Shown here: in pieces, positions 10,446 through 34,233 of the stretch | Numbering within the stretch: the stretch's first letter is position 1 | How the letters are laid out: each line of letters opens with the position of its first letter | From: Pseudarthrobacter defluvii | GTDB taxonomy: Bacteria > Actinomycetota > Actinomycetes > Actinomycetales > Micrococcaceae | Assembly: GCF_030816725.1 (NCBI RefSeq) | Contig: NZ_JAUSYG010000001.1 | Span: forward strand, 2,852,001 to 2,916,000 | Reading direction: 5' to 3' | Length of the DNA: 64,000 nt | Notes under the pieces: generated by a model | Seen by the model: the letters and a program-made list of their open reading frames with translations, nothing else | Told to the model about the DNA's origin: nothing | Databases searched by the model: none | Program-made: the position numbers and the translations under genes

Positions 10446-11084
10446 TCAGTGCAACCGGAGCCGGTTCCGGTTGCGGTTCCACCAGGCGAAGGCAGCGCCA
10501 GACACAGCCAGCAGCACCGCTCCAAGGGTGATCGGCAGGAGGGCAGGTCCCCCTGGGCCCTGCCCACCGGCGGGGGCAACGGCAGCCAATTGGGTAGGCG
10601 CTGCAGACCGGGTGACAGGGCTGTTCCAGTCCTTTCCGCTGGACGGGCCGGTGGGTGGGCGGTAACCGGCGGAGGGAGAGGAACTGCCGGCTGCAGGTTC
10701 GTCCGGGACTTGCGGCACAGTAGCGGGGACCGCGGCCGGATCAGGCGCCTGCGTGCCAGATCGTGGGGTATCTGCCTGTGGCGGTTGCGGCTGGGCGGGT
10801 TGGGCGGGCGGCTCGGAAGGTGGCGCCGGCTGCGCGGGTGGCGGAGCCGGTTCTTTGGACTTCCGTGACCGCCCGTTTTGTCCTGTGTCCGGGCTGCTGG
10901 CGAGGATGGGCAGGCAGACGAGCCCGCAGTCTTGTGCTGCCTGGGTAGCCGATGTGGGGGCGGGCGATGGTTCCGTGGTTGCAGCGAGTGCCGGGCCTGT
11001 TGGGAAGAAGCCAAAAGCGAGGGCCAGCGCGGCTGCGGATATCGTCGTCGAAACAGCGTGGCGGACCGGTGTGGACGGGGTCAT
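10446..11084 (-). CDS. Small exported Pro-rich protein with C-terminal membrane anchor
   Basis: No recognised family. The 212-residue product has an N-terminal signal peptide (residues 1-35, likely cut after PALA) and a short loop with two cysteines, C53 and C57 (DCGLVC). A long Pro/Ala/Gln-rich linker covers about 78-175. A hydrophobic helix (182-200) ends in [12 protein letters not shown], a positively charged tail. The helix begins with LLPITLG, which recalls a sortase LPXTG signal with the final glycine displaced. The ATG at 11084 has a GAAAGG ribosome site. It lies directly downstream of the EssC-like ATPase gene. A signal plus tail-anchor topology would place the linker outside the membrane. 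A structural role near the ATPase is possible but only inferred. Confidence 0.75.
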
Positions 11085-11153
11085 TGCTACCTTTCGATGC
11101 GCGCAGCCCCCCACCACGGCTTTCTGGTGTCCCCGGTAGTCTTCTACAGCGCG

Positions 11154-34000: not shown

Positions 34001-34233
34001 GGATAATTCAACCGCCCCACAGCATTCTTGGCCTTCGACACCACCCACACACCACCGTCATTCAACTCAACCTCAGTGGTCTTAAACCCCGGATACAACA
34101 CAGCACCCGTCACCACAACAGCCACCACAGCACCAAACGCAGTACCCGGGAACCACCGCGGGCGGGAAAACCGGCGCCATCGGGGCGTGCCGGCGGCAGT
34201 GGTTTGGGCGCGCGTTTGTCCGCGACGTTTCAT
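28078..34233 (-). CDS. Giant Ig-like/Fn3 repeat surface protein
   Basis: A 2051-residue protein anchored by one N-terminal helix (about 31-47), so nearly all of it is extracellular. Residues 55-385 form a repeat-rich, propeller-like module (VWVVSKAKNAVGRL, GKVWAVSPS, GNVWLVNQNM). From about 405 to 1480 there are roughly eleven cadherin/Ig-like units of about 98 residues, marked by V-L-D-N-D-S-D-P-D-G-D-type calcium-binding signatures. Five Fn3 domains fill about 1484-1940. The last 100 residues are cysteine-containing (RSCTEPRKG, SQCNG, RCDTSNIGC). The ATG has GGGGAG upstream and leads the operon. Codon choice changes abruptly near residue 360. It matches the FN3 member of the PFNA cluster, presumably an adhesin or sensor. 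Confidence 0.88.
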   Translation of the reverse strand: MKRRGQTRAQTTAAGTPRWRRFSRPRWFPGTAFGAVVAVVVTGAVLYPGFKTTEVELNDGGVWVVSKAKNAVGRLNYPSRVLDGAVTPASTTFDVLQHAGEVFVEDGTGSTLNQVSPANMRLGGDKQLPGAADVSFGARTISVTDAGSGKVWAVSPSTVNGFDKEASEPVMVGSAGIVSAVGSDDRIYSADPKTGTVTVTGVDANGAVTSSDSSTWDGLKGAGDLQMTVVGDQPVVLDAAAGNLFLPGGKRLVLENARDAKLQQAGPGSDVVAVATRKALVKQPLDGGAAGTVTFDGEGVPAAPVQLGGCVHAAWSGANKYVRDCTNDGDDKKVDVPKASASPSYVFRVNRDLVVLNDVNSGNVWLVNQNMQLVNNWDDVVPPKNQSDDQDQESADNNTINVLPDRTKPNRPPETKPDAVGVRPGRTTILSVLDNDSDPDGDVLTAAVAADAGPKSGTLESIYGGTAFQITVPADAKPGTETFNYSASDGRGLSATGQVTLAVVGPDENKPPKFKRGEDTTMLVEQGKTVSQNILTDWIDPDGDDLVLLDAKADNDQDQVKVRRDGLLTFQDSGATAGKKNVQVTIWDGRATVTGKVVVNVQPPGALAPVVNADHVTAVVGQDLVISPLKNDVDPNGGALRLAQVEANGPAELGPVTDGGTFTFRSTTPGPVYLTYIASNGPQSSQGLIRVDVESGNDGGDPVAVHDVALMPTGGSVLLDPLANDSDPSGGVLVLQSVKLPDNATVSVSVINHSVLRITDILGTKDPILFEYTMSNGKKSATGSVSVVPVPAPAVVEAPQPKPDEVNVRVNDVVTIPVLDNDTHPQGQELTVDPVLPQAVDPADGKSFVSENTLRFIAGSQPKTVRAIYNAVDPQGQKSAAAVTIHILPLEGAQNSRPQPRNLTARVVAAGTVRIPVPLDGIDPDGDSVQLTGIDSTPAMGTGTVGSNFVDFTAAGDGTGTDTFRYKVVDRQGAVNTGTVTVGIAPRGEMNQKPTPVDDEVRVRPGRQIAVDATANDTDPDGDRIRILTDGVEADPALQANVSKNSGRIILLAPNEAGTVNVRYTIADDRDAAAQATIRLVVDNNVPLKAPIARDDRVTSAQAMGKTAVDVPVLKNDEDPDGVGENLKISTEAATARPGGNGNVLVDLTEQPQLIPYTVEDVDGQQSTAIIWVPGLGQQVPTLAKDEVIEVVAGQSVDVDLKEWVKVREGRSPRLTQADRIKLIGADGGDPIIRDGAGLKYAAGADYVGPGSLTFEVTDGTGPDDPAGLKSTLSIRTKVLPNPNKNNPPELLGANVDVPKGDSASTDLGKLTSDPDQDDVEKMKYELVGDSPGGFNVRVEGAALKVSAAESTATGTRAAVQVKATDPRGLEATATYQLAVTASNRPKPVANDDVQDNAAAGKPVTINVLANDANPFPETPLKIIAANTETGSGNVDVSGDSVTVTPAPGFTGTLVVAYTVEDKTRDSSRHATARLRLTVKDKPAAPTTPQAQSVGDQTALLNWSAPADRGSAITKYTVYGEGGFKQDCAANTCTLNGLTNNTTYHFQVTATNEFGDSERSPASADVRPDVKPDTPLAPSLKFGDRQLAVNWAAPASKGSPVKSYDLEISPAPAGQNAQIQGLTSVSYVWKGLQNGVSYKVRVLARNDAKDPSEWSPYSAAEVPAGVPATPAAPSVAQATPVGSQSQLRVVWTAPNNNGDAVSAYTLTTLRGGAAIASQQVAGTSQNVTVDNSESSYTFTVSATNKAGTSATSAPSAATRAVGKPGTVGAPTATLVDTDANGGKIDVRFTQLTDAQRNGSSPTEITYRYSLTSGGGSGSIPAGGGVVAAANGTQTSVVVWAVSSSSTSAGDASAPSNAVNPYGLAFAPTVNGSKSSGVGDQTVSWTWNQPSGNGRAVTGYRYSLDNGPWQDTTQRSFSKKVGYSETHKLEVRAVSAGQPGRIGSDTSRSGAEPPPPVPTSWNITASPTRSCTEPRKGTDSFVDGNPSQCNGAGKWLDAGAPATTDRYQVWYKTSNNPTGIWYHLTSGMASGNWLRCDTSNIGCNPPKDMPNR

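Follow-up and report, generated by a model that had tools for sequence, protein, structure and literature searches.

The described systems closest to the locus reported here are two type VII secretion systems (T7SSs), T7SSd and T7SSe, and the PFNA operon of bifidobacteria. In the passages used here of the paper by Garrett, Higginson and Palmer (2024; PMC11217815), T7SSd belongs to Actinomycetota and combines an FHA-bearing EssC with a conserved phosphothreonine motif, a transmembrane (TM) Ser/Thr kinase, a WXG100 protein and a giant Ig-like protein. T7SSe, reported there from Bacillota only, has the PPM phosphatase TseF and TseJ with a C-terminal FHA domain; its ubiquitin-like component, TseB, is a protein of its own, and a second protein of the WXG100 type is present. 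The PFNA operon of Bifidobacterium, in the parts of PMC8430577 and PMC6803598 considered, has a core of kinase, FN3 protein, MoxR-type ATPase, DUF58 protein and transglutaminase-like protein (TGM), with prpC and fha in some species. Here we describe an eleven-gene locus of Pseudarthrobacter defluvii, found in a stretch of 64,000 nucleotides (positions 2,852,001 to 2,916,000 of contig NZ_JAUSYG010000001.1; hereafter the window), which is part of a single-contig 4.58 Mb genome. Judged from the sequence, a PFNA-type operon (giant Ig/Fn3 protein, MoxR, DUF58, TGM, kinase) continues here into a type VII (EssC/EccC) ATPase. We consider it likely, though well short of certain, that the locus encodes the core of a phosphorylation-controlled T7SS of Actinomycetota, working by the mechanism proposed below. 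This offers a testable function for PFNA, for which a role as immune sensor has been discussed in bifidobacteria, and makes the locus a natural setting in which to examine how phosphorylation may control a type VII motor.

All eleven genes listed by the initial annotation are present on the minus strand, running from 34233 down to 10446 with ligA next after them, and profile searches identified their domains. The five PFNA core genes are all in this one locus by domain searches; unlike in the operon as described for Bifidobacterium, it is continued by EssC. The traits shared with T7SSd are the FHA domain with a phosphothreonine motif on the TsxC equivalent, the TsdD-like TM kinase, a WXG100 protein (unlinked here) and a giant Ig-like protein, while PP2C and the FHA protein recall TseF and TseJ of T7SSe. 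The locus differs from T7SSd by the added MoxR, DUF58, transglutaminase-like, PP2C, RDD-FHA, FHA and FHA-helix-turn-helix (FHA-HTH) proteins; the portion of the T7SSd text covered (PMC11217815) mentions neither transglutaminase nor DUF58, MoxR or fibronectin. TsdI is a giant Ig-like protein with a signal peptide and a C-terminal TM segment in the same source, whereas the only hydrophobic segment found in the giant here lies near its N-terminus. No conserved candidate for a TsdH-like small single-TM protein was seen in the locus. The mycobacterial moxR operon also has MoxR adjoining DUF58, and the part of PMC12067865 considered itself remarks on its resemblance to PFNA; EssC is not described in those passages. 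The main text of PMC8430577 has no occurrence of FtsK or 'secretion system', PMC6803598 none of FtsK or 'secretion', and among the open-licence PMC papers listed in our searches none connected PFNA with T7SS. The locus is probably a variant of type VII secretion nearest T7SSd and T7SSe, in which PFNA would provide control and the envelope portion.

The strongest evidence is the linkage of EssC to the PFNA genes, followed here with TGM as marker, together with the co-occurrence of EssC and WXG100. We sampled 61 genomes of the family, scoring as EssC+ those with a full-length orthologue (64-100% identity), as TGM+ those with an orthologue above 700 bits, and as EssC- those without an EssC orthologue at that level (relatives at 31-33% do occur, for instance in G195 and G205). 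In all 13 EssC+ genomes TGM lies upstream of EssC by 6.2-7.6 kb on the same strand. A scan of named genomes by EssC alignment, from which the best 80 loci were kept among further candidates, gave TGM in 75/75 loci with at least 7.3 kb of upstream DNA; in the other five (L123, L124, L170, L190, L197) this DNA is too short. Thus, the joining of a PFNA set to a type VII-like motor, as claimed initially, stands, and independence of the ATPase block from PFNA in most relatives is rejected for the window's own clade. Matches in these 80 loci number 75 for TGM, 78 for RDD-FHA, 76 for PP2C, 78 for the FHA protein, 79 each for kinase and FHA-HTH, and 80 for EssC. Gene order is that of the window, with the PP2C/FHA order hidden by a merged FHA match in six loci (L121, L130, L135, L139, L162, L180); in L197 the giant-gene match is located downstream instead. 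By their titles, the loci come from Arthrobacter, Pseudarthrobacter, Paenarthrobacter, Sinomonas, Cellulosimicrobium, Luteimicrobium, Herbiconiux, Cryobacterium, Rathayibacter, Brachybacterium, Promicromonospora and Microbacterium, among others, and include one Bifidobacteriaceae metagenome-assembled genome (L197, EssC 55%). A set of genes found again across so many genera is not due to chance. The window EssC shares 97% identity with its counterpart in Pseudarthrobacter phenanthrenivorans SWC37. In a quick tree with 14 open forks, in which the placement of L114, L082, L217 and L095 is unsure, it falls in a 16-row clade (SH-aLRT 100) with EssCs of conserved gene order. An Arthrobacter-like locus with EssC 65% identical to that of the window also stands on a contig titled Sporosarcina beigongshangi (L168), which is probably mislabelled or contaminated.

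The converse, that PFNA always comes with the motor, does not hold, and several observations weigh against a single secretion unit. TGM occurs without an EssC orthologue in 13 of the 26 TGM+ family genomes. All 12 EssC- loci that are long enough (the thirteenth, L088, is too short) keep matches to MoxR, DUF58, TGM, PP2C, the FHA protein and FHA-HTH, and the FHA-like gene, assigned at first to the ATPase block, is thus also present where EssC is absent. In eight of them ligA follows FHA-HTH with EssC absent between, at less than 100 bases in four (hit coordinates). EssC is thus an optional module of the operon. The kinase TxxR motif is also kept in 12/12 EssC- loci examined, so that signalling does not need the motor. 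Synteny found throughout the window's clade weakens with distance: among 16 loci from a phylum-wide search, several of which end at contig ends, TGM adjoins EssC within the retrieved DNA in only two (L208, L210). It lies just beyond this DNA and convergent with EssC in G338 (12.6 kb) and G303 (3.4 kb), at least 90 kb away in G130, G101 and G121, and on a separate contig in G148. In L217, MoxR, DUF58 and TGM are lacking, though EssC is accompanied by WXG100, a kinase and a giant Ig protein.

These facts would suit an independent envelope-signalling operon in which EssC is a lodger, sharing the promoter and using other membrane partners. We find this rather unlikely, as the window's clade has no informative locus with EssC but without TGM, and the association persists through rearranged gene order (L099, L208). 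L208 (G403), which belongs to another class, keeps together in altered order PP2C, FHA protein, kinase, FHA-HTH, giant, MoxR, DUF58, TGM and EssC, and L210 has giant-MoxR-DUF58-TGM, a reversed kinase and EssC at 35%. Furthermore, an LWxxT-type island of the FHA protein, DHLWDRTVMRNIED (19269-19310), tracks EssC: it was found in 69/78 named and 9/12 family EssC+ loci and in 0/12 EssC- loci, counts made on related sequences with a motif picked after inspection, which tempers them.

Some EssC- genomes have PFNA next to genes of a different T7SS-type set, which also speaks against the lodger. Three of the 13 TGM+ EssC- genomes (G213, G187, G200), and G158, have an EccC-like gene, 25-29% identical to EssC, that converges with TGM at a distance of 3.6-12 kb; in G174 the distance is 16 kb. 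A YukD-domain gene adjoins the EccC-like gene in G213, G187 and G174, and by eye in G158. No EccC-like gene was found near TGM in the other TGM+ EssC- genomes, with the contig of G201 too short to judge. PF08817 (YukD) exceeds its cut-off in every one of the 12 TGM+ EssC- genomes of the family that the search covered (all but G200) and in 0/13 EssC+ ones, two of which have weak matches. By these profile counts the EssC type and YukD-bearing T7SSs seem to replace each other within the family. Against this, G079, G039 and G155, from another family, have both EssC and YukD; these three genomes and the frequent separation of the blocks in distant relatives lower our confidence in the secretion-core reading. 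A more general proposal, to which we give somewhat less than an even chance, is that PFNA serves as a control and envelope module for Actinomycetota T7SSs at large, working either with its own EssC, fused to FHA and ubiquitin-like domains, or with an EccC/EccD system nearby. If so, the bifidobacterial PFNA operon is to be re-read as secretion machinery.

The second line of evidence is the WXG100 partner. Generic PF06013 matches are uninformative in this respect and count against the case, as they occur in 39/39 genomes searched, EssC+ or not. We therefore used a subfamily model of 14 rows, 13 EssC-adjacent genes of relatives and an orphan of the window genome, which favours EssC-adjacent genes by construction and is to that extent a further reservation. 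It scores at least 48 bits in 13/13 EssC+ genomes against 0/48 others, seven of which reach 21-30 bits, and the two genera holding both EssC states agree with this pattern (G163/G192, G186/G212). The many unlinked matches in EssC+ genomes are not explained by the bias of the model. Among the best 80 named loci, 34 have a WXG100 match downstream of EssC, the first within 1.5 kb on the same strand, including 20/20 outside Micrococcaceae (L168, which has no match, set aside). A frame of 311-426 aa with a WXG head is present as well in 12 of these 20, the seeds having included two such heads.

The window itself has no WXG100 gene adjoining EssC, as in 46 of the 80 loci, which would fit a DNA pump of FtsK type or a secretion function lost in this lineage. 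We regard either as very improbable. The protein scores 549.6 bits with the EssC model TIGR03928 (below the curated cut-off of 778.4) and 336.9 with the EccC model versus 48.7 with that of FtsK, and its first Walker A (13537-13563) is conserved in 15 orthologues. The stand-alone orphan WXG100 at C1:4401240, unlinked to EssC, is 64-66% identical to the EssC-adjacent copies of three close relatives (L137, L142, L177), and the subfamily co-occurrence points the same way. Three WXG-fused cargo candidates are likewise unlinked: a protein of 321 aa at C1:1068842, one of 494 aa at C1:4513824 that matches DUF2515 above cut-off (27.3 bits), and, matching in part, a frame of 501 aa at C1:244515. Hence, cargo left unnamed by the initial annotation now has candidate genes, of putative export, in the genome of an ordinary soil bacterium. 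A strong WXG100 at G000:C1:3493546 was set aside as EssC partner, since it matches EspC and is of a different type. Transposase-like fragments are seen by eye (L111:1344-2085) some 5 kb away from the orphan gene.

EssC (11206-15651; PF01580, TM about 241-279) carries at its N-terminus an FHA domain (residues 102-199; 15055-15348) with invariant residues G130, R131, S145, H148, N166 and G167, predicted to be of the phosphothreonine type and suited to phosphothreonine binding. Residues 1-95 (15367-15651) have a predicted ubiquitin-like fold, with strands 2-8, 15-20, 50-54 and 84-89 and helix 27-37 in the model. The 220-residue model has a predicted TM score (pTM) of 0.49, and the predicted local distance difference test (pLDDT) for this part is 81-87 by blocks and 63-64 around residues 51-70. 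Profile matches are weak: YukD matches 3/43 relatives (best E 0.02), an hhalign comparison gives local E 7.6e-4 at probability 25 over 23 columns, and the best PDB profile match is a redesigned ubiquitin (E 0.062). Three points stand on the other side: the window EssC has no YukD match, the 50 rows shown of the fold list for residues 1-220 are chains of FHA or FHA-like type whose alignments lie chiefly within residues 102-199, and the call comes from one model with weak profile matches, so we make it with caution. PMC11217815, in the part considered, found no ubiquitin-like protein in T7SSd, while here such a domain appears fused to EssC. If the model is right, this domain of EssC would take the place of a separate protein, a proposal for where the ubiquitin-like part reported missing from T7SSd may have gone.

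We infer the following mechanism. EssC would be the motor, with its putative ubiquitin-like domain (a separate protein in other T7SSs) followed by a phosphothreonine-binding FHA, and would export a small WXG100 protein and larger WXG100-headed proteins encoded elsewhere in the genome. The kinase (16474-18258; PF00069, HRD and DFG, TM 456-483) would phosphorylate TxxR motifs in its own linker (17329, 17044 and 16948) and in the cytoplasmic FHA protein (18255-20303; start uncertain, with an open reading frame to 20408). The C-terminal FHA of the latter matches PF00498 at 21.6 bits (cut-off 20.7). FHA domains of EssC and its partners may then dock on the phosphorylated motifs, so that the machine is put together or opened; PP2C (20290-21297, profile matches) would reverse the phosphorylation. 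The phosphorylation gating suggested initially is consistent with the FHA and threonine motifs. The FHA-HTH protein (15648-16352) may relay the phosphorylation state to transcription; its FHA fold comes from a model and its C-terminal helices are read as helix-turn-helix, with no Pfam match and no NCBIfam match at E 0.01. EspM of ESX-1, in the passages of PMC7002343 used, is also T7SS-linked with FHA and a C-terminal helix-turn-helix, a likeness of domain architecture. MoxR (27026-27997; PF07726, 210 bits) and DUF58 (membrane protein, 25612-26955; PF01882, 47.9 bits) would be assembly chaperones.

The giant surface protein (28078-34233; nine Big_9 and three Fn3 stretches, TM predicted at residues 27-51 from hydrophobicity) and the multi-TM TGM (22967-25615; PF01841) would form the wall-spanning part. 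The TGM motif GDDEQY (23999-24016) has Asp at the position that we take to be that of the catalytic Cys. Among the 66 parsed of 75 named TGMs this residue is Asp in 64, Glu in one and Gln in one; of the nine unparsed, the seven whose motif could be read carry GDDEQ as well. It is Asp in all parsed EssC- (7/12) and EssC+ (7/12) family loci. A paralogue in the same genome (L201:8178-10655) retains Cys in the motif. By this substitution TGM is probably a structural pseudoenzyme.

Such a giant protein with a TM segment, and the FN3 proposals for bifidobacteria (PMC8430577, PMC6803598 and PMC12607495, as far as consulted), would also agree with a mainly adhesive or sensory surface structure, whose parts, rather than effectors, EssC exports or positions. 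This appears improbable to us, since the WXG-headed proteins of relatives have lipase-like (L197; Mbeg1-like, barely over cut-off) or, by eye, glycine-rich ends, and small genes adjoin them in what looks like effector loci. One such candidate in L178 is followed by a protein (16083-16601) that weakly resembles LpqN, at 17.8 bits and under the cut-off; it may be a chaperone or an immunity protein, and similar genes are seen by eye in L181.

The operon was judged from gene spacing and overlaps. The initial description of mostly 4-base overlaps is correct for five of the ten junctions (DUF58/TGM, TGM/RDD, RDD/PP2C, FHA/kinase, FHA-like/EssC); PP2C/FHA overlap by about 14 bases if the FHA protein starts at 20303, and at the remaining four the genes stand 70-121 bases apart. 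Scanning 10000-28200 for consensus sites was uninformative, with no promoter-like site and six terminator-like sites versus 8.8 in shuffles, the only one on the minus strand lying within a coding region. The RDD membrane protein (21294-22970; PF06271, zinc ribbon) has its C-terminal FHA-like motif by eye and no Pfam FHA match at E 0.001. The small signal-peptide-like, Pro-rich protein with a C-terminal TM (10446-11084) has no Pfam or NCBIfam match and occurs in only 18 of the best 80 named loci; it is lineage-specific rather than a conserved part, and its slot holds WXG100 in many relatives.

Luteimicrobium has a second, tandem EssC (L181:19508-24112, 44%) with another kind of WXG100-like gene after it, and thus contains EssCs of two subfamilies side by side. 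The window genome encodes a second FtsK-type protein of 1347 aa (L114:7084-11127; G000:C1 about 1391083-1395126) with an N-terminal FHA-like stretch by eye, and with no T7SS neighbours recognisable by eye across an 18 kb stretch. The gene upstream of the giant gene (34384-35595) looks nucleotide cyclase-like by eye.
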